Of a stretch of 64,000 nucleotides of DNA, positions 41,469 through 59,942 are shown piece by piece (position 1 is the first letter of the stretch; the number at the start of each line of letters is the position of its first letter). Origin of the DNA: Acinetobacter sp. XS-4 (GTDB lineage: Bacteria > Pseudomonadota > Gammaproteobacteria > Pseudomonadales > Moraxellaceae); the NCBI RefSeq assembly GCF_023920705.1, contig NZ_CP094657.1:3286001-3350000 (forward strand), given 5' to 3'. Under the pieces are notes generated by a model that was not told the origin of the DNA, made no database searches, and was given only the letters and a program-made list of their open reading frames with translations. The translations under genes were made by a program, and so were the position numbers.

Positions 41469-42221
41469 ATGGATTTAGAGACTCGCCAACTACAACAACT
41501 TTTAAGCGCAAAAAACCAGCTTCCAGAAGTGGTTTTATTAAAAGCAACCACAACTTCGACCAATGATGATATTCGTGAAATTGCCCAAAAAGGCATTACA
41601 ACAGGCTTGGTTTGCAGTGCTCAACAAACTCAAGGGCGAGGTCAACATCAACGGCAATGGATTTCACCTGAAGGAAACATTTATTTAAGCACATTGGTGC
41701 AAACTCGAACACCCTTAGATGGTCGCTTAGCACTTGAAGTTGCTCTAAATATTCTGCAAATTCCGCAGTTGCAGCCTTTAAGCTTACAAGTGAAATGGCC
41801 AAATGATTTGTATAGTGCTCAAGGTAAATGGGGTGGAATTTTGGTCGAACCGCTTTCCCAGCATCAAGCTATTGTGGGTGTAGGCATTAATTTAAAAACA
41901 CCGCCAGTAACCGACAATGACCAACCAATTACCTCATTAGAAGATTTAGGTTTAGAACAAATGAGTCGTCTTGAACTCATTTCAGAGCTATATGTCGCTA
42001 TTCAAAATGCAGCTCGCTGGTTTGATCATGGTTGCTACAACTTGGCAGGACGTTTTAATCACCACGCTGCATGGATTAATCAGTTAGTTCAGTTCGAACA
42101 TAGTCAGGGACTGGTACATGGCCGTTTTGTTGGAATATCCAATGAAGGTGCAGTAATTCTTGAAACCCCAGAACCTCAGCAGTTTTATCAAGGTCGCTTA
42201 AGACCACAAGTGAATCAATAA
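41469..42221 (+). CDS. birA: BirA, biotin-protein ligase without DNA-binding domain
   Basis: BirA activates biotin as biotinyl-AMP and transfers it to carboxylase carrier proteins. The catalytic motifs are [29 protein letters not shown] and KWPNDLY with the active-site lysine. The protein has 250 residues and begins directly in the catalytic domain. The N-terminal helix-turn-helix of the bifunctional E. coli BirA (321 residues) is absent, so it cannot repress the bio operon as E. coli BirA does. coaX follows after 14 bp, a common pairing. Confidence 0.94.
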
Positions 42222-42235
42222 ACAGGTGTTCTTCC

Positions 42236-42970
42236 ATGAAAAGTTTATGGCTTGATATCGGGAACACCCGTTTAAAGTATTGGATTACTGAAAATCAGCA
42301 AATTATTGAGCATGCAGCTGAGCTACATTTACAGTCCCCTGCCGATCTGCTACTTGGTTTAATTCAACACTTTAAACACCAAGGTCTGCATCGTATTGGG
42401 ATTTCTTCAGTTCTCGATACTGAAAACAACCAACGTATTCAGCAGATTTTAAAATGGCTCGAAATTCCTGTTGTTTTTGCCAAAGTTCATGCTGAATATG
42501 CTGAGTTAAAGTGTGGCTATGAAGTACCAAGTCAGCTCGGGATTGACCGCTGGTTACAAGTATTAGCTGTAGCTCAGGCTAATGAAAACTATTGCATTAT
42601 TGGTTGCGGAACAGCGCTTACGATTGATCTAACGCAAGGTAAACAACATTTAGGAGGTTACATCCTCCCTAATTTATATTTGCAGCGCGATGCACTCATT
42701 CAAAATACAAAGGGCATTAAAATTCCAGACTCAGCTTTTGATAACCTGAACCCAGGTAATAACACAGTCGATGCAGTGCATCACGGTATTTTGTTAGGCC
42801 TTATTAGTACGATTGAAAGCATCATACAGCAATCTCCTAAAAAGTTGCTCCTTACAGGTGGGGATGCTCCCCTTTTTGCTAAGTTCTTGAAAAAATATGA
42901 TCCAGTCGTAGAAACTGATCTTTTGCTCAAAGGACTACAACAATATATTGCTCATTATCCTAAAGACTAA
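42236..42970 (+). CDS. coaX: CoaX, type III pantothenate kinase
   Basis: CoaX phosphorylates pantothenate in the first step of coenzyme A synthesis. It is the type III form with the actin-like ATPase fold: [12 protein letters not shown] at residues 6-17, then [10 protein letters not shown] and the [10 protein letters not shown] phosphate motif. The length is 244 residues. It is co-oriented with birA, with an AGGTG ribosome-binding site about 8 bp before the ATG. Such enzymes are generally not feedback-inhibited by CoA. Confidence 0.96.
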
Positions 42971-46427: not shown

Positions 46428-46467
46428 AAAAAAAGAGGGCGATTGTTTTTACAACCGCCCTCTTTCG
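46428..46467. terminator. Strong bidirectional terminator between dusC and the secreted-protein cluster
   Basis: AAAGAGGGCG pairs with CGCCCTCTTT, with a further TTGT/ACAA pairing inside. An eight-base T-run follows on the minus strand and a T-run on the plus strand. Confidence 0.88.
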
Positions 46468-46494: not shown

Positions 46495-47448
46495 TTAAAA
46501 GCCGCTTACTTTCATTTTAAAGTCGGTTACAGAAACGCCAGTGACACCAAAACTCCCCATTGAGCCATTCGGTAAATTATTAAACGTTGTTGTATTTTGG
46601 GTACCCATATTTCCTAAAGTGACATTGTTAAGTGAAGCATCAAATTTACTTGATACGCCTGTATTTCCAAAAGTTAATCCAGTTGGATCAACACCTGCAT
46701 AGAAACCATCAAGCACAAAACCAGTTGAGGTATTTGTGCCCGCAAATTTAAATCCAAATGTAGCACCCGTATTATCGGACACTAAAGTAATTGGACAACC
46801 TGCAGCAGCAGAACAAATAGATTGAATTGCCCCTCCAAATTTAACCATAACTGATTGAGCAGCATGGCCAAGCTGAATATTTAAACGAGGTTTATTGGTT
46901 TGTACAAAGTTAATATCTAGATTGCCAGTAGAACGGATCAGTTCTTTTACGCCCGTATTTACTGTCGTTCCCGAACTAAAAATTGATTTTGGCGCATAAC
47001 TTGTTAATGCATAATCGGATGGACTAGATAAAGATGCACTAGGGGCCATATAGACTGAAAAAGGTAAAAGTCGAATACCGTTTACATCACTCCCCATAGA
47101 TACCGCTAAATTTAAAAAAGGATTTCCACCACCAGCATCGACATCCATTGCAATATTAAAAGAAGGATTACTCGATACAGCAGCTTTAATAAACTCTATG
47201 CCAGGAACTGGATTAGTAGAATTCCCTGCAATGACAAAGCCAGCCTTACTATTATACGAAGTTGAGGCAATACCGTTTGTATCAATCAGAGTGACTTGAT
47301 TAAATTTAACTTTATCAGCCTGAATACCTAAGGTTAAACCATTTTGACCCGTTGCTGCTGCAAGACTTTGGTCATCTAAAGGTTGCATTGCAAAAACACT
47401 TGAACTACTGGCAAGTAACAACCAGCACCCTATATTTTTATTCTTCAT
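46495..47448 (-). CDS. Secreted protein of the L-D-x-x-L-x4-G-Q family, gene 5
   Basis: This 317-residue protein has a Sec signal peptide (1-20, ending SSVFA). It is followed at once by the cluster motif PLDDQSLAAATGQNG (L24, L29, G34, Q35). The rest is Gly/Ser/Asn/Thr-rich and looks beta-structured, with no predicted membrane helix. Its only mature cysteines form one close pair (C-x5-C in ICSAAAGCP). It ends in VSGF; a terminal aromatic residue also occurs in many outer-membrane proteins. A palindromic terminator precedes the gene, so it may be expressed separately or by read-through. I do not recognise a function. It vaguely resembles sequences labelled DUF6160, which I cannot confirm. Confidence 0.8.
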   Translation of the reverse strand: MKNKNIGCWLLLASSSSVFAMQPLDDQSLAAATGQNGLTLGIQADKVKFNQVTLIDTNGIASTSYNSKAGFVIAGNSTNPVPGIEFIKAAVSSNPSFNIAMDVDAGGGNPFLNLAVSMGSDVNGIRLLPFSVYMAPSASLSSPSDYALTSYAPKSIFSSGTTVNTGVKELIRSTGNLDINFVQTNKPRLNIQLGHAAQSVMVKFGGAIQSICSAAAGCPITLVSDNTGATFGFKFAGTNTSTGFVLDGFYAGVDPTGLTFGNTGVSSKFDASLNNVTLGNMGTQNTTTFNNLPNGSMGSFGVTGVSVTDFKMKVSGF

Positions 47449-47576
47449 GTCGCTCTAATCCTTAAGAGACAAACGCTTATTATTTGTTCAGACTATCAGA
47501 ATAATATTCAAGTACAAAGTAATTATCCCTATAACCCGACGAATGCAAATCTAATCACATTAAAATAAAAACCATG

Positions 47577-47605
47577 TAAAAAGTGGCGATATCGCCACTT
47601 TTCTT
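47577..47605 (-). terminator. Terminator between cluster genes 4 and 5
   Basis: AAAAGTGGCGAT/ATCGCCACTTTT (47579-47602) is a 24-nt perfect palindrome. The minus strand runs out in a short T tract (TTTTTA). Confidence 0.75.
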
Positions 47606-47607
47606 TA

Positions 47608-50019
47608 TTAGTTAAAAGCACCATTTCTCGGCACAATACTAAAGCTACTATTTAAACGGCCACCAGTAATCGCAAGCTCACCTAAACGTGCACCTGCACC
47701 AGTTGAAGGTGGATAGAAGTTAATATCTTTAACACGTAATGCGCCGTCGATACTCTTATCAGGATTAAAATAAACCGCCGTATTTACGCCAACTTTACCT
47801 AAACCACTTGCAGTGTCTTTACCAACAACTAAAGCGGTATTAAATGCAAGCTTTCCAGTAATATTATCAAAGCCAATTGCAGAACCATCGATCGGATCAC
47901 TAATTTGAACCGTATTTCCAGTTGCTGTGGCAGGCATGGTGAAATCACCAAGTACTGTTAGAGCACTACCATCTGCAATTGAACTGTTTGGCACGATCGA
48001 TAAGTTTAGATCACCACCTAAACGCAGTTTTAGACCAAATAAGACATCATTATTTCTGGCAAAGTTATCAATTGGTGAGGTACATGAACCGGTAGCTGGA
48101 CAAGTTTTATACTTTGCCCCTGGTAAATAACCTGCTGCAATTTCAGTTGATAAAGCAAGTAGCATCTCTTTTAAACTAATATTGAGGCTACCATTTTCTA
48201 AGCCAATACTTCCATTGCCTTTGACGAACATATCGATGTTACGTAGCCCCATATAATAATCAGTTGGGTTACCTGCATTATTGGCATTTGGAGAACCATC
48301 AATTAATAAAATTGAGGTCGTTTTGGTTCCAGTCGCATCACGTCCTGTAGTTCCAGCTGCAATACCAAAACCTAAACGCGAAGTCGTTCCAGATGTAGCA
48401 ACAACATTCTGAACAGGTTTACCATTGGCATCTTTTGTATAGTAATAAGCACTATTTGCTGTTGCATCTAAACCATAAACAGCAGCATTAGCATTTAAGT
48501 TATAGAAAGGTAGTGCTAAACCCCACTGGTTGTTTGCACCATTGTCTGCAAACTGATTTGCAGGAGCGACATTCGCACTTGTCGTAAAACGACCACGTCT
48601 TGAAAATGCTTGAAACTCTGCTCCACGCATCGCAAGAATTAAACTGAATGGATTAGTAACCGTATCACGATGAATATTATGCTGATAATCAGCAGCTGTC
48701 GTTAAAGTACCACTCCCTAAACGGATTGCATTTAAAGTCGCGTTGTTTGGCATTAATAAGGTTTTTGTATCAGCAAGATTTAGATAAATATTTCCGCTGT
48801 CGAAATAACCACGCGTAGCTGAGTTAAGACCAGTTAAATTGCCAAACTCGAAACCATAAGCATTAAGACCTGCTCCACCAATTTCTAAAGTAGTTGCTTT
48901 ACCATCTGCACCTAGCATTGAATCATTATCTTTAGTGAATTCACCTTTCATACGAAAGGCAATGCCAGAATTACCTAAAATACTATTACTTGAACCTGTA
49001 CCCGCCGCAGTATTTGCCGTACCTAAAGTGGTGGTATCCGCAGTACCATCCATACCACGGACTTGTAAATAACTATTTACCATACGTCCACTAGCACCTA
49101 AACGAATCAAACCTTTCGCATTTTGTGGACTATTAGTTGCATCTAAAGCATAAGGATTAGCTTTATCTACATTCGAACTGAGCATCACTTCAATATTCAG
49201 GCCTGAATTGGTTACTTTGCCACTACTGTCAACATACGTACCCGCAGTTAAACCAGAAGCTGAATCTGCTACACGGTTAAAATCAACATAGCCATAGGTA
49301 GTATTCGGAGTTTGCCCTACACCAGCAACATTAGTTCCAGTATTTGTCTGTAAAACTAAGCCACGAGTTGGATCAATCAACATGGCTCCTTTACCAACAA
49401 AATTAAAGTTAAAATTTCTTAAAATTAACTGATTTAGCTGGCTGCGAGCATCCAATTGCCCTAAATAAATATTGGCATTATTAATACCAAGTGTCATGCT
49501 TGACTGGCTATTTGCATTAAATAGACCATCTTGGGTTGTAAGTGCCAAATTTAAAGGAGAAGTCGTTTGAATAGCCAACTGCCCCATTGTCGGTGAGCAA
49601 ATAGCAGAGCTATTACATACTTTAAAACTATTTACGGTAATAAGTGATGGACTGCTTTGCATAGAAAAGTCGAGTCCGGTTTTACCCGTAGTCGGATTAC
49701 TACCTACATCTAAACGGTAATTAGTGCTTAAAGTTTGGCTAGATGCATTACTTTTTTGGACTTTTACACCACTCGCTTGAGCTCTTAAGACCTGATCTGC
49801 ACTTGTTGGTGTGCCTGCATGGTCATCCCAATAAGCATTATCAATATTAATTTCGTTAAACGTAGTTTGAATAGAGATCCCATCTTGTCCATTGACGGCA
49901 CTCAAATCAGCATCTGTTAAAGCTTCTAAAGCATAAATTTGACCACTCACTAACAACATGCTGGTTGCTAATGTATTTAAAATAAACTTTGAGCTGTGAT
50001 TTTCTTTATTTTTTTTCAT
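47608..50019 (-). CDS. Secreted protein of the L-D-x-x-L-x4-G-Q family, gene 4 (largest)
   Basis: An exported protein of 803 residues, started at ATG 50017-50019 (MKKNKENHSS), 9 bp after AAGGA. The longer reading to 50058 would overlap gene 3. The signal peptide ends near GQIYA and is followed by ALEALTDADLSAVNGQDGISI (motif L34, L39, G44, Q45). The long body is rich in Asn, Gly, Thr and Ala with repeated beta-like segments such as GLQTNTG-type and LGNSGIAF. All four mature cysteines are in two pairs (CNSSAIC, CPATGSC). No catalytic motif is seen. It is probably surface-located or periplasmic. Function unknown. Confidence 0.82.
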   Translation of the reverse strand: MKKNKENHSSKFILNTLATSMLLVSGQIYALEALTDADLSAVNGQDGISIQTTFNEINIDNAYWDDHAGTPTSADQVLRAQASGVKVQKSNASSQTLSTNYRLDVGSNPTTGKTGLDFSMQSSPSLITVNSFKVCNSSAICSPTMGQLAIQTTSPLNLALTTQDGLFNANSQSSMTLGINNANIYLGQLDARSQLNQLILRNFNFNFVGKGAMLIDPTRGLVLQTNTGTNVAGVGQTPNTTYGYVDFNRVADSASGLTAGTYVDSSGKVTNSGLNIEVMLSSNVDKANPYALDATNSPQNAKGLIRLGASGRMVNSYLQVRGMDGTADTTTLGTANTAAGTGSSNSILGNSGIAFRMKGEFTKDNDSMLGADGKATTLEIGGAGLNAYGFEFGNLTGLNSATRGYFDSGNIYLNLADTKTLLMPNNATLNAIRLGSGTLTTAADYQHNIHRDTVTNPFSLILAMRGAEFQAFSRRGRFTTSANVAPANQFADNGANNQWGLALPFYNLNANAAVYGLDATANSAYYYTKDANGKPVQNVVATSGTTSRLGFGIAAGTTGRDATGTKTTSILLIDGSPNANNAGNPTDYYMGLRNIDMFVKGNGSIGLENGSLNISLKEMLLALSTEIAAGYLPGAKYKTCPATGSCTSPIDNFARNNDVLFGLKLRLGGDLNLSIVPNSSIADGSALTVLGDFTMPATATGNTVQISDPIDGSAIGFDNITGKLAFNTALVVGKDTASGLGKVGVNTAVYFNPDKSIDGALRVKDINFYPPSTGAGARLGELAITGGRLNSSFSIVPRNGAFN

Positions 50020-50051
50020 CACTTCAGTTCCTTTGAAATCTACATTAACCC

Positions 50052-50777
50052 TTAACAACGAGGATGACTACCATCACAACTAAAGACCATGACTTTTCCT
50101 TGAATAGCTAAGTTTCCATTCATCATCAAGCCCATAAAACCAGTTTCGCGCCCATAGTCATAGGCTGATGGAGTTGCTGTAGCAACTTGCTGTGCAGCAC
50201 TATTAGCAGTCGCAGCATATGTCGGTTTTTTGAAATATGCATAATCATACATATTTGCACTCGACCCCTGAGTTGTTGTTGAGCTGGTAAAGTTATCTTG
50301 CTCAATCGATAAAGCATTGAAACCAAAATTACGGAATAAAATCGGTTGAGCTGCACTAAAACTAAGCTGAATAGCAGGCTTAATAATTTCAGTATTACTT
50401 TTATCAAGATACTTTAAATCAGCACCATCCAAGCCCATTTTTTGAATATTTAAAGTTCCTTGTACGCCTTTAAACACTAGCCAAAGTTTATTACCACTAT
50501 CACTATTTTCTGCCCAACCACTTGGTTTAGTCGCATCTGCTTGCACAAACCGTTTGTTAATCGCCAAGCCTAAATGACAGAACTCTACGTTCTCACAGAC
50601 ACCACCACTACCATTGTCAAATATACCATTAGAGGTCTGGTTTAAATTGAGCATCAAAGATAAATCAGCACCAGCCTGACCATTAATCGCCTGCAAAGCA
50701 TCATTATCTAAAGTTTGCAGCTCCGCATGAGTAACTGTTGCACAAAGAGCGAGGATCAAAGTACTTAATTTTTTCAT
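50052..50777 (-). CDS. Secreted protein of the L-D-x-x-L-x4-G-Q family, gene 3 (smallest)
   Basis: A 241-residue exported protein whose signal peptide (1-18) ends THA. It is followed by ELQTLDNDALQAINGQAG (motif L23, L28, G33, Q34). The body is Asn/Gly/Ala-rich with aromatic positions, and the four mature cysteines form two pairs: CENVEFC near residue 61 and CDGSHPRC, the latter being the extreme C-terminus. It starts 15 bp after gene 2 and lies 32 bp before gene 4, so genes 2-3-4 are very probably one operon. No function can be assigned. Confidence 0.82.
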   Translation of the reverse strand: MKKLSTLILALCATVTHAELQTLDNDALQAINGQAGADLSLMLNLNQTSNGIFDNGSGGVCENVEFCHLGLAINKRFVQADATKPSGWAENSDSGNKLWLVFKGVQGTLNIQKMGLDGADLKYLDKSNTEIIKPAIQLSFSAAQPILFRNFGFNALSIEQDNFTSSTTTQGSSANMYDYAYFKKPTYAATANSAAQQVATATPSAYDYGRETGFMGLMMNGNLAIQGKVMVFSCDGSHPRC

Positions 50778-50792
50778 ATCATTATCCTCCTC

Positions 50793-52835
50793 TTATAAGC
50801 CTTTAGTTGTCAGTTTTAAATGTTGGATTAATACACCGTCAATAACACCTGAACCCATGTTATTACTAATGGCTGAGCTAATTTGTGCCCCAGATAATTT
50901 ATAGGTGTTCAAATCTGCATTTGGCGTGGTGGTAGACCAACGTCCATTGTTATAAAGTGCATCTGGTAAAGGTGTGCCAGTTGGTACAACAAACTGAGCG
51001 CCATTCCCAGCATCAGCTAAGGTATAACCTGTATTATTTACTGTCGGGTTATAATAAGAGGTATTGTCAATACTAGCCCAGTTCGCACCTTGAGAATCAA
51101 ATTTTAAACCTGTGCCTGCATTTCCAGTCCAGCCTGTTGCTGTACGGTACTGCCAAGTATCATAACAAGTACTTAAGTTCAAAAATCCACAGCTATAACT
51201 GCCTGCACGACGTTCTTGATTTTGCAATTGGTAGAAGTTCTTGGTCTGCGTTATCGCTGACACAGTGCCCGTTGGTAGTTTACCAAATGAAATACCGACC
51301 GCATCTTGTGTACTATTCCCTTTAAATGCTTCTAAAGTATTGTTCGTTGCATTATAAACTGTTGAACCAATTGAAATACTGCTATGTGTTGCACTAGAGC
51401 CTTGGTAGGTTTTACCACCTAAAGTTACACTGGTACCACATTGGTAAATATTACAAGTAGAGCCTAAATAACTCGTATCGGCACCACTATAATCTGTATA
51501 AATTTTCTTATAAATTTCTGGTTTATTTGGAATACGAGCAAGTTCTAAACTAAAGTTTTTACCATCTGAGCTTAAAACTAGTGGTTGATATAAAGAACCC
51601 AAAACAAGGTTAATATTCGGGTTATAGAGGTATAAACCTTCATTTGCATCAAAAGTTGGAGCAAGCCCACCATTAATTGCAGGTGTTACCAAATTACCTT
51701 GAGTAGTTCCTGTTTCACGTGTGCTCAAACGTAATACGTTATTCATAGCACTATCGGTTGGCGCGGTCCATGAACCCGTTGAAGTAACCGTCGTAGTTTG
51801 ACTACGAATTCGATATAACCAATCCGCGCTTGGAGAGTTATTACTTGGGGCACCCGCATATTGCGTACTATACCGATTTACCCAAGGCCCTACCGAAGAC
51901 GTTGGAGTATTTGCAGTAATTGTCGCTCTTAAATTAGATGCATCACCACTGTTTAAACGAATAACACCAGCAAAACCTAAAGTATCATTATAAAAAGGGC
52001 TCATTCCACCAGCAGATGTTGCGCCCCCTAATGTTTGGAAAAGCTGTAAACGACTGCCATTTAAGCTAAAGTTATTCCAAACCCCTTGTAAACGAAGACG
52101 GTTTGCACGGCTTGCATCCGTACTCGTACCAATTAAGCCATTTGAGTCACCATAATTAAATTGGTCTGCTGCACCATTTATTTTATTTGGATTTCGGACA
52201 AAGATATCTGACCATAAACCTAATTTCAGCTTATAGGCATCTATACCTGCGGAATCTTTCGTTCCAACCTCATATAAAGGAGCTTCCAAAGCTAAATAAG
52301 TTACTTGGCAAGATGGGTCACTCGCACCACTACAAGTAGCTGCACTGAAGTTAGGTACTGAATTTGCTGTCGCAACTTTAAAAATCCACGGGTTAACCGC
52401 AGTACCCCAACTCGAAATTGCAGCGGCTGTATCAGTAGACGCGATGCGGGTATTTGTATCATTATCAGATTTAGAAAGCGCTAAACCATAAAGAAAAATA
52501 TCTGCTTTACCAACAGCGCGATCACCCGAATCAATCGAGCCATTTTTATTGGTATCTGCTGCTGTCATACTCAAAGGACCAACAGGCACATAATTGATAT
52601 AACCTGTGTCTTTGGTACGATCGGTTAATATCTGACTTGAGGTTTCATTAGCGCCTGCACCACGAAATACCATATAGGCATTCTGCGGCAAAATAGCAAT
52701 ACCTTCACCTGTAGTTTCACTTAAGCCCGCATCAGAAAGTTCTTCGAGTGCGAAACTAGCTTGGCTTATACAAAGCCCGATTAAACTTGCCAAAACGGTT
52801 TTTTGAAACCTTACCGTATAATTAAGTGTAGTCAT
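50793..52835 (-). CDS. Secreted protein of the L-D-x-x-L-x4-G-Q family, gene 2, with EF-hand-like loop
   Basis: A 680-residue exported protein whose signal peptide ends ASFA (28). It is followed by LEELSDAGLSETTGEGI (motif L33, L38, G43, E44). A calcium-type loop D94-T-N96-K-N98-G99-S-I101-D102-x-x-D105 follows, matching the EF-hand/dockerin pattern. The remaining sequence is Asn/Ser/Thr/Gly-rich and beta-like. Six mature cysteines form three close pairs (C-x7-C, C-x4-C, C-x7-C). A candidate promoter stands at 52974-53002, and an AGGAAGG site precedes the ATG. Function unknown; an adhesin or surface-layer role is only a guess. Confidence 0.82.
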   Translation of the reverse strand: MTTLNYTVRFQKTVLASLIGLCISQASFALEELSDAGLSETTGEGIAILPQNAYMVFRGAGANETSSQILTDRTKDTGYINYVPVGPLSMTAADTNKNGSIDSGDRAVGKADIFLYGLALSKSDNDTNTRIASTDTAAAISSWGTAVNPWIFKVATANSVPNFSAATCSGASDPSCQVTYLALEAPLYEVGTKDSAGIDAYKLKLGLWSDIFVRNPNKINGAADQFNYGDSNGLIGTSTDASRANRLRLQGVWNNFSLNGSRLQLFQTLGGATSAGGMSPFYNDTLGFAGVIRLNSGDASNLRATITANTPTSSVGPWVNRYSTQYAGAPSNNSPSADWLYRIRSQTTTVTSTGSWTAPTDSAMNNVLRLSTRETGTTQGNLVTPAINGGLAPTFDANEGLYLYNPNINLVLGSLYQPLVLSSDGKNFSLELARIPNKPEIYKKIYTDYSGADTSYLGSTCNIYQCGTSVTLGGKTYQGSSATHSSISIGSTVYNATNNTLEAFKGNSTQDAVGISFGKLPTGTVSAITQTKNFYQLQNQERRAGSYSCGFLNLSTCYDTWQYRTATGWTGNAGTGLKFDSQGANWASIDNTSYYNPTVNNTGYTLADAGNGAQFVVPTGTPLPDALYNNGRWSTTTPNADLNTYKLSGAQISSAISNNMGSGVIDGVLIQHLKLTTKGL

Positions 52836-52973
52836 CTTGACCTTCCTGTTTTATACGATGCCGCGCACCATATTTATTTTTCTTTAACAATCCTTGATGC
52901 CAGGTGAATCTATCCTTTTCACCTTAGACAAAGAGGCAAATCTAAAAGATATTGCCAACCCTTCCACATTTCT

Positions 52974-53002
52974 ATTATGCGGAATATTTGCACAAATGCA
53001 AA
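52974..53002 (-). promoter_or_regulatory. Candidate promoter for cluster genes 2-4
   Basis: On the minus strand TTTGCA (4 of 6 to TTGACA) and CATAAT (5 of 6 to TATAAT) are separated by 17 bp. The leader to the gene 2 ATG would be about 130 nt. Confidence 0.4.
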
Positions 53003-53066
53003 AAAAAGCATGTAAAAAATTACTTTTCCGATGAATGTAAAGCAACTCAAGCTGCCTTCTCGGCAT

Positions 53067-54542
53067 TTAACAAAAAGTTAAACCTGAACCATGGCAGTTT
53101 GGCTTAAAGTTTTGATTCGTTAACTGCAAGTTGCTTAAATTTAATGTGAGCGGACTATTTTTCAAATCAACTGTACCAATATTTACATCTAAATCCCCCA
53201 GCTTTAATAATCCTCCTAAATCAGAGGTTTGTGCTGGGTTAGCTTGTAAATAGGCTGAAACTGCTGTTGAAATTTGCGGAAATAGTGGCGAAATATCAAT
53301 CGCATCTTGTGGAATAATGTTACCGACGTTAACTGGATTTGCAAAAGACATCCACCAACCCTTTTGAGCCACGTCATCTGCTTTAGCGCCTGGCCATTGA
53401 AGCATTTGATTTTGTAGAGCCAGGTACATGGGTGAATTAATTGGTAAATTATGAATAAGTCCCAATGACTGAGTTAAATTTAAATTCGCTGTAATATTTG
53501 AAATTGTACCATTCATATATACATTAGAAAATTTAGAACCTTGGCCTGCAATGAGACATGCTAATACACTACAGCTTGTTACTGTGGCTTCAACCTTACC
53601 ACCCTGAGTATAAATACCTGTTGGTTCAGGATAAGCTGGATCGTGTGGACCTGCGGCATTGTATTGCACAACACCATCTACTGGGTACGAACTACTATGT
53701 CCGACATAAATATTAGGGACTTTCACTGGAGCAGATAAAACTTTGGAGCTAACTCTATTACCATTAACCTGAATGGGAGCAATTTCAAAATAGTTATTTT
53801 GAATGCCTGGAATATTAAATCCGCCATCGGAAGTAACAAAACTTACCTCAGCTGCCCCTCCCAGACCTAAAGCTTGTAAACGACCTGTAACTGCATTTGT
53901 TCCATATAAATTGTCGCGTGTAGCAGAAGTTGTCGCATAACCTTTAATTAAACCACTGCTATCAGATTGAACCTGCATATAACCAGAAATCGAGTTGATC
54001 CCATTTGGCCTAGATGTATTTTCAGTACCTGCTGTAAGCAAGCCGATAAATTTCTCAGCACTTAATCTTAAACCGGCGACTTCACGGGTTGATGCAGAAT
54101 TAGGATTTTTAATTGCAAATTCTATGAACGGATTTGTTAAAACCGCAGAAGACGAAGCCCGCTCTTCACTAGTCATGGCCAAAGGATTGCCATTCGCATC
54201 GAACTTTTGTCCACTTAAGCTCAGATTATCAATATCAATATCACAGCCACCAGCACCATTAACGCCGCCACAACCTAACTGTAATTTACGAATATTGGTG
54301 TTAAGTTCTAATTCAGCTTCCAAACCTAATTTATAGAAACCAATATTACTACTATTGTCGCGTAGTTTTTCTAAATTTGCAGAGTCCGTAGGCGCAATAT
54401 AAGACATACTCATTAAAGCTTGGCCACGAGTTGCGGATAGTTCCGAATCTGACATAGGGACTAATGTAGAAGCAGCATACGCTGAAGAAAAGCATAAGCT
54501 TCCAAGCGCTATCGCTACATGAAGAGACGTAAACTGTCGCAT
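53067..54542 (-). CDS. Secreted protein of the L-D-x-x-L-x4-G-Q family, gene 1
   Basis: An exported protein of 491 residues. The start at ATG 54540-54542 (MRQFTSLHVAIALG) is chosen because GGAGGT lies 5 bp upstream; the longer reading to 54626 has no such support. The signal peptide ends SSAYA (23) and is followed by LVPMSDSELSATRGQAL (motif M30, L35, G40, Q41). The body is Asn/Ser/Gly-rich. The six mature cysteines form three close pairs (CGGVNGAGGC, CSVLAC, and CHGSGLTFC at the C-terminus). A 231-bp gap separates it from gene 2, so it may be the head of the operon or an independent unit. Function unknown. Confidence 0.82.
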   Translation of the reverse strand: MRQFTSLHVAIALGSLCFSSAYAASTLVPMSDSELSATRGQALMSMSYIAPTDSANLEKLRDNSSNIGFYKLGLEAELELNTNIRKLQLGCGGVNGAGGCDIDIDNLSLSGQKFDANGNPLAMTSEERASSSAVLTNPFIEFAIKNPNSASTREVAGLRLSAEKFIGLLTAGTENTSRPNGINSISGYMQVQSDSSGLIKGYATTSATRDNLYGTNAVTGRLQALGLGGAAEVSFVTSDGGFNIPGIQNNYFEIAPIQVNGNRVSSKVLSAPVKVPNIYVGHSSSYPVDGVVQYNAAGPHDPAYPEPTGIYTQGGKVEATVTSCSVLACLIAGQGSKFSNVYMNGTISNITANLNLTQSLGLIHNLPINSPMYLALQNQMLQWPGAKADDVAQKGWWMSFANPVNVGNIIPQDAIDISPLFPQISTAVSAYLQANPAQTSDLGGLLKLGDLDVNIGTVDLKNSPLTLNLSNLQLTNQNFKPNCHGSGLTFC

Positions 54543-59441: not shown

Positions 59442-59942
59442 TTATTCAGCAGAATCATGGTTTTTCAATTTATTTAACTTATCAGTTGCTGTTTTCTTCA
59501 ACTCGTCAAATTTTGCTGTTGCTTGAGTTTTTAACTCATCAAATTTTGTTGCAGCCTCATCTTTTAACTCTGCCGCCTTAGCTTTGGCATCATCAAGTTT
59601 ATGGCTTGCCTCAGTACGTAAATGATCGAACTTGTCTTGCAGACTATGTTGGGCATCCTCAAGTTTGCCTTTCAAATCATTTGCTTTATCTTCAACCGCC
59701 TCTTTACCCGCAGCTTGTTTCTCTTTTACATTTTCCTTTAAATCATCCAAAGCTTTTTCACCTTGAGCTTTTGCATCTGCCGCTTTTGCCTTTAATTCGT
59801 CTACTGTATCTTCAACAGCTTCTTTACCCGCAGCTTGCTTAGCTTTTACGGTTTCTTTTAAATCGTCCAAAGCTTTTTCACCTTGTACTTTTGCATCTGC
59901 CGCTTTTGCCTTTAAATCATCTAATTTATTTTCAGTAGTCAT
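59442..59942 (-). CDS. LEA-like/hydrophilin repeat protein
   Basis: A 166-residue, extremely hydrophilic, Lys/Ala/Asp/Glu-rich protein with no signal peptide and no cysteine or tryptophan. It is built of two almost identical 40-residue repeats (7-46 and 47-86), each containing AADAK-QGEKALDDLKE and KQAAGKEAVED, followed by degenerate 11-mer-like repeats (AKAAELKDEAATKFDELKTQ and similar). This matches the amphipathic-helix pattern of group 3 LEA proteins and of hydrophilins that Acinetobacter uses for desiccation tolerance. That role here is inferred. The DNA repeat is 120 bp. Confidence 0.8.
   Translation of the reverse strand: MTTENKLDDLKAKAADAKVQGEKALDDLKETVKAKQAAGKEAVEDTVDELKAKAADAKAQGEKALDDLKENVKEKQAAGKEAVEDKANDLKGKLEDAQHSLQDKFDHLRTEASHKLDDAKAKAAELKDEAATKFDELKTQATAKFDELKKTATDKLNKLKNHDSAE
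59685..59924 (-). repeat. Two tandem 120-bp repeats inside the LEA-like gene
   Basis: Codons 7-46 (59805-59924) and 47-86 (59685-59804) encode near-identical 40-residue units. Repeat-number variation between strains is possible here. Confidence 0.8.

Follow-up and report, generated by a model that had tools for sequence, protein, structure and literature searches.

The stretch analysed here, hereafter the window, comprises 64,000 nucleotides (C1:3286001-3350000, within one 4,171,404-base contig, NZ_CP094657.1) of Acinetobacter sp. XS-4, an organism that protein identity places close to A. baumannii, A. pittii and A. lactucae. On its minus strand lies a cluster of five genes, in the order 1-2-3-4-5 and separated by 231, 15, 32 and 159 bases (Table 1), each encoding a protein with a Sec signal peptide, as judged from visual inspection and a self-devised hydrophobicity criterion. 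Behind that signal all five carry a segment of fixed spacing, [LM][STD][DN]xxLxxxxG[QE], which is likely to be a double-glycine-type leader acting after Sec export and addressed to peptidases of the FilB type.

Table 1. Features of the five-gene cluster, in positions of the window
Feature	Position	Strand	Description
Gene 1	53067..54542	-	491 amino acids (aa), exported; paralogue at C1:2743 kb (L010)
Gene 1 leader motif	54420..54455	-	MSDSELSATRGQ; M30-Q41
Gene 2	50793..52835	-	680 aa, exported; relatives in other genera by profile comparison
Gene 2 leader motif	52704..52739	-	LSDAGLSETTGE; ends in GE
Gene 3	50052..50777	-	241 aa, exported, DUF6160
Gene 3 leader motif	50676..50711	-	LDNDALQAINGQ; pattern match
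Gene 4	47608..50019	-	803 aa, exported, DUF6160; all-beta body, high-confidence prediction (mean pLDDT 87.7)
Gene 4 leader motif	49885..49920	-	LTDADLSAVNGQ; predicted helix 36-41, first strand at 48
Terminator-like hairpin between genes 4 and 5	47578..47603	-	11 pairs; consensus match only
Gene 5	46495..47448	-	317 aa, exported, DUF6160; FilA-like along its length
Gene 5 leader motif	47344..47379	-	LDDQSLAAATGQ; predicted helix 26-33, first strand at 38
Terminator-like hairpin behind gene 5	46431..46466	-	16 pairs; consensus match only

The motif is present in five of the 62 complete open reading frames of at least 100 aa in the window, all five being cluster genes, and in none of the 57 others; by chance it is expected at 5e-5 to 5e-4 per protein (residues 21-60 shuffled, 20,000 shuffles each). 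An earlier note on this DNA had placed its key residues at M30/L35/G40, L33/L38/G43, L23/L28/G33, L34/L39/G44 and L24/L29/G34 in genes 1 to 5, and had described the proteins as unalike in body and 241 to 803 residues long. The residues are all as given there, the sizes are 491, 680, 241, 803 and 317 aa, and a comparison of the bodies behind the motif, all against all with phmmer at E<=10, returned self hits only, that is, no detectable relation. As for the expanded family that the note had proposed, the leader is indeed common to the five genes; the bodies, being unlike by sequence, are not.

Excerpts of a published account (PMC10885120) describe the leaders read by C39 peptidases as hydrophobic at -12, -7 and -4 and as being cut after GG, GA or GS. 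In the window, L or M stands at -12, L at -7 and G at -2 in all five motifs, and position -4 is occupied by T, T, I, V and A. The fixed spacing is thus the one found in double-glycine leaders, with the segment standing behind a Sec signal peptide. The idea of a common N-terminal module for sorting or assembly is thereby supported and made more specific, the module being of the kind read by C39 peptidases. The likeness to the double-glycine leaders that serve exporters combining a C39 peptidase with an ABC transporter (PCAT, AMS) extends to the hydrophobic residues at -12, -7 and mostly -4, the glycine at -2, the short predicted helix, the fixed spacing and the unlike cargo; the window leader differs from them in lying behind a Sec signal, in ending in Q or E at -1, and in cargo bodies of 207-758 residues, and no ABC transporter is required in the model proposed below. 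Structure prediction, which had been suggested as a check for all five proteins, was made for genes 4 and 5: both models show the motif as a short helix, predicted with low confidence, and start an all-beta body three residues behind GQ. Such a boundary between helix and body suits a removable leader, although a predicted model is no proof of one.

The cluster had been described as matching no characterised system, a statement that can now be narrowed to a likeness to DUF6160, to FilA (gene 5) and to the fil operon, with its FapD-like FilB and FapF-like FilC. DUF6160 (PF19657), for which the Pfam entry gives no function, is a profile that spans signal peptide and motif, as it does in genes 3, 4 and 5, with 30.1, 34.9 and 32.3 bits at a gathering cut-off of 27; gene 1 reaches 16.2 bits, below that cut-off, and gene 2 has no match to it at E<=1. 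Against the FilA model NF050077, gene 5 scores 100 bits over residues 12-316, short of the exception-model cut-off of 220, gene 4 scores 48.6 bits and gene 2 18 bits, both in the N-terminal part only, and genes 1 and 3 have no match at E<=1. A sixth motif protein of the genome is FilA itself, with MDDAALSAATGQ, encoded by the first gene of the fil operon, and a seventh, with LNDKSLASVTGQ, is the orphan paralogue of gene 1 (L010 5022-6699). The paralogue is followed by a 194-aa protein of faint C39 likeness and without recognisable catalytic residues, an arrangement present in five of the 99 genus genomes.

The Acinetobacter fil operon, called a 'putative pilus system', runs in the order FilA, FilB (the C39 peptidase), FilC, FilD (FadL family), FilE and FilF. 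It is akin to the cluster through the motif of its FilA and the FilA likeness of gene 5, and it differs in that the cluster is without FilB to FilF, has FilA likeness confined to the N-terminal part in genes 2 and 4, and has none by NF050077 in genes 1 and 3. FilE, encoded at L009 5086-6522, contains a long (APT)n repeat run. It had been noted that no protease adjoins the cluster, which is true locally; the cognate peptidase is likely to be encoded elsewhere in the genome, where there is one stand-alone C39 peptidase of the FilB type, the one beside FilA. FilB scores 59.5 bits against the C39 peptidase model PF03412 (cut-off 22), and all eight aligned C39 sequences have the catalytic residues C65, H150 and D166 (numbering of L101) as well as a preceding Q. 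FilB matches FapD (NF058616) with 109 bits (E 2e-31) and FilC matches FapF (NF058560) with 56.6 bits (E 1.9e-15), far below the equivalog cut-offs of 330 and 700, so that both are Fap-like, and not Fap.

For binding, cutting, the position of the cut and the route over the outer membrane, the following steps may be proposed. Sec would export the five proteins and signal peptidase would take off the signal peptide. The L/M-x4-L-x4-G-Q/E helix thus exposed would be bound in the periplasm by stand-alone FilB, supplied in trans by the fil operon. FilB would probably cut the leader there, behind G-Q (or G-E), in the way that cytoplasmic C39 domains cut behind G-G. The freed all-beta body would then reach the outer membrane or the surface, perhaps via the FapF-like FilC.

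The analysis also covered the neighbourhoods of distant C39 genes. A discovery set was formed from 40 of the 48 stand-alone C39 matches (frames <400 aa) that resemble FilB or FapD in genomes of the class, outside the genome studied here; the eight omitted are additional copies, six of G144 and two of G361. Set R1 consists of 39 regions of a phylum sample with 41 of 42 new stand-alone matches (G613:C130 omitted), and set R2 of 80 loci, all counted. Exported open reading frames on the same strand within 2.5 kb of the C39 gene are termed near, and the other exported frames of the loci far. When these were scanned with [LMIV]x(g1)[LM]x(g2)G under varied spacings and with no prior alignment, the near frames of the discovery set peaked at g1=4, g2=4 (38 of 143; other spacings 3 to 20), and the far frames gave a flat distribution (25 of 270 at that spacing, 8 to 24 at the others). 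In this set, 38/143 near vs 13/270 far frames had the leader pattern (p 6e-10), at 29 of the 40 loci. In R1, for which the pattern had been fixed beforehand, 44 near frames fell on (4,4), with 2 to 27 at other spacings, against 21 far frames, with 12 to 34 at others; the leader pattern itself was found in 24 of 164 near and 4 of 282 far frames (p 5e-8), at 18 of 39 loci. These rows are not independent events, because closely related FapE proteins recur within R1. A stricter pattern, drawn up when both sets were already known, no longer counts FapB/FapC-like repeats and certain chance hits that the first includes; it retains 31 near and 3 far frames in the discovery set (24 of 40 loci; 0.9 near expected from shuffled residues) and 18 near and 1 far in R1 (16 of 39 loci; 1.3 near expected).

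The ending of the leader varies among these loci, and true GG endings stand beside the C39 gene in L109, L111, L117 and L120. At L124 (5699-7486), leaders ending in AG (e.g. LSDADMDGVTAG) occur in four small exported proteins encoded on the same strand as the C39 gene, possibly a further leader type with a peptidase clade of its own. A protein of L133 matches the leader part of the bacteriocin model TIGR03949 weakly (E 0.004, below cut-off). A tree was built from only those C39 genes that have a labelled neighbour (89 rows, 88 distinct; no signal-peptide filter), the label being the nearest leader ending. Along it the five labels change 15 times, compared with a mean of 46.1 when shuffled, and none of 200 shuffles was as low. 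The GQ rows fall into the FilB clade of 45 rows in 34 of 35 cases, and 19 of the 23 GR/GK rows form part of one clade of 22 that includes L139 and L145, the remaining four belonging to a beta-proteobacterial branch of the FilB clade.

Two members of the GR/GK clade connect the leader with the Fap system. These are L139 and L145, whose C39 proteins are FapD by score (442 and 425 bits; cut-off 330). The adjoining gene in each encodes a FapE, at 346 and 351 bits against a cut-off of 250, and behind its signal this FapE has the leader LKDQELATLRGR in L139 and LKDAEMAELRGR in L145; relatives of FapE (71 to 120 bits) also lie beside relatives of FapD (241 to 281 bits) in L103, L104 and L107, all of them below cut-off. 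Excerpts of a 2017 study (PMC5557850) present FapD as a C39 peptidase of the periplasm, with a cysteine on which amyloid export depends, report that FapE alone was without peptides in its first ~70 residues and that the FapF linker may be processed too, and leave the target of FapD open, 'an alternative recognition sequence' being considered; in a 2025 review, likewise seen in excerpt (PMC12822426), FapD is 'thought to' process FapE and FapF. A FapE leader ending in GR fits the observations of PMC5557850 on FapE and FapD. Fap export in Pseudomonas (FapD, FapE, FapF) shares with the system proposed here the Sec-exported substrates, the periplasmic stand-alone C39 peptidase, a FapF-like protein (in FilC) and the leader spacing, which recurs in FapE beside FapD; the differences are that FilB forms a separate clade, that its leaders end in GQ and not in GR/GK, and that the window proteins are remote from the peptidase.

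At the level of whole genomes, DUF6160 is present in 84 and FilB in 81 of 99 genomes of the genus: 81 have both, three DUF6160 only, none FilB only and 15 neither (Fisher 4e-15). Among 274 genomes of the class, DUF6160 occurs in six (five over cut-off) from four families, and these six are also the six best FilB matches (170-611 bits; p 2e-12); 36 others have weaker FilB matches (<=116 bits) and no DUF6160 at E<=0.001. Two of the six have one FilB match apiece, alongside 15 and 17 DUF6160 matches distributed over many contigs. Finally, DUF6160 was found in 32 of 32 genomes chosen via a FilB-like C39 protein (24 from R2 loci without a strict adjacent motif, eight from loci with one), with 1 to 12 matches each, and in none of 14 control genomes. 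In Pseudomonas aeruginosa PA7 (L179, L286), a 163-aa DUF6160 protein is encoded directly upstream of a FilB-type C39 gene, three more DUF6160 genes are grouped elsewhere and a fourth stands alone.

Several observations weigh against a leader cut by FilB, and each rival explanation draws on some of them. The last residue of the window motif is Q in four of the five proteins and E in one, so that G, A or S is found at -1 in none of the five, and two of the five have threonine at -4; in addition, the Fap proteins are said, in the excerpts of PMC5557850, to have no canonical C39 sequence. The segment might then be a docking tag, bound and left uncut by a C39-fold protein or some other periplasmic factor, as in type 1 secretion with an inactive C39-like domain. 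The final Q or E, the conservation that continues behind the motif and the mention of inactive C39-like domains in PMC5557850, as far as excerpted, speak for such a tag, which I nonetheless hold to be rather unlikely, for FilB retains its Cys, His and Asp and, according to the same excerpts, C38A in its relative FapD stops FapC secretion.

The conservation just mentioned has a further consequence: Q35 and G37 are invariant in 55 of 55 sequences, and part of the motif may consequently belong to the mature fold. Three genomes of the genus (G012, G075, G096) moreover encode DUF6160 proteins and no FilB, and two of them, G012 and G096, retain a cluster of four and five genes without it; a Pfam C39 search found nothing in one of the three and, in the other two, weak matches (24 bits) to proteins that lack a signal peptide and measure 176 and 181 aa. 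Both the GQ-x-G stretch continuing into the first strand and these three genomes would agree with a segment that structurally caps the mature beta body and simply happens to adjoin the signal peptide, its likeness to C39 leaders being a matter of convergence or old homology. This appears improbable, as the five bodies are unrelated by sequence, the helix is of low confidence in both models, and the association with C39 genes would be left unexplained.

There remain points that concern location and descent. FilB lies 147 kb from the cluster, and part of its co-occurrence with DUF6160 is trivial because FilA and FilB share one operon. As FilC and FilD belong to that operon too, co-occurrence with FilB is equally co-occurrence with them, and the segment could be a sorting or anchoring motif read by a non-C39 factor, for instance FilC or FilD in the outer membrane, with FilB merely a fellow member of the operon. 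The chance of this seems very slight, given that the enrichment of the motif extends to C39 genes from further clades, where both the neighbours and the leader endings differ. Co-inheritance of neighbouring genes would give part of the label clustering on the tree without any interaction. Eleven of 40 discovery loci and 21 of 39 R1 loci have no near motif by the first pattern, and enrichment in R2 is weak (46/239 near vs 73/542 far, p 0.04; 34 of 80 loci), with a spacing grid whose peak lies at (6,4), since related neighbours prevail among near and far frames alike.

With these points taken into account, a post-Sec leader for FilB-type peptidases is still the explanation I favour, and it may be an instance of something broader. 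It seems marginally more probable than its negation that Proteobacteria possess a general two-step export, by Sec and then by a double-glycine-type leader that a dedicated, periplasmic, stand-alone C39 peptidase reads, with endings specific to clades (GQ for FilB, GR/GK for FapD, GG, AG and GA/GE for others), several unrelated and scattered cargos served in trans, and FapE as one of the substrates. In the excerpts seen of the openly licensed literature on DUF6160, periplasmic C39 proteins, double-glycine leaders, FilB and FapD/FapE, no link is made between a post-Sec motif and a periplasmic C39 peptidase. The leader would supply FapD, FilB and their relatives with a specific recognition sequence that can be tested, and a means of finding their cargo in genomes; it also gives a proposed function to the DUF6160 segment, widespread as this is in the genus. 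In many other bacteria, too, a tag of this kind is found next to members of a family of periplasmic proteases, which suggests that export is followed by a further sorting step.

The cluster is not confined to the window. Genes 2-3-4 together with gene 1 are present in other genomes of the genus (L295, L296) and, judged from their leaders, sizes and arrangement, also in Thalassolituus (L290), a Marinobacter (L289), Kistimonas (L293) and an Alcanivoracaceae genome (L291); genes 2-3-4 alone are found in stretches from an Oleiphilaceae genome (L297) and from Vreelandella (L298). Profile comparison with these relatives, leader included, gives E 1.6e-10 over 154 columns for gene 4 and 3e-9 over 127 columns for gene 2. 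A biotin ligase gene adjoins the cluster in L289, L297 and L298, accompanied in L289 and L297 by a type III pantothenate kinase gene, and in the window both genes lie at 41469-42970, 3.5 kb from the cluster (46495-54542). That one or both of these genes lie near the cluster across families suggests that it has long held this place in the chromosome.

Some relatives of gene 4 are annotated by their source as 'heme utilization protein', which is neither supported nor excluded here, and the model of gene 4 weakly resembles outer-membrane barrels. As to the hairpins of Table 1, nine terminator-like sites were found in the region where 6.7 are expected by shuffling. Elsewhere in the window, at 59442-59942, is encoded a 166-aa protein rich in Lys, Ala and Asp and built of repeated, helix-like units.

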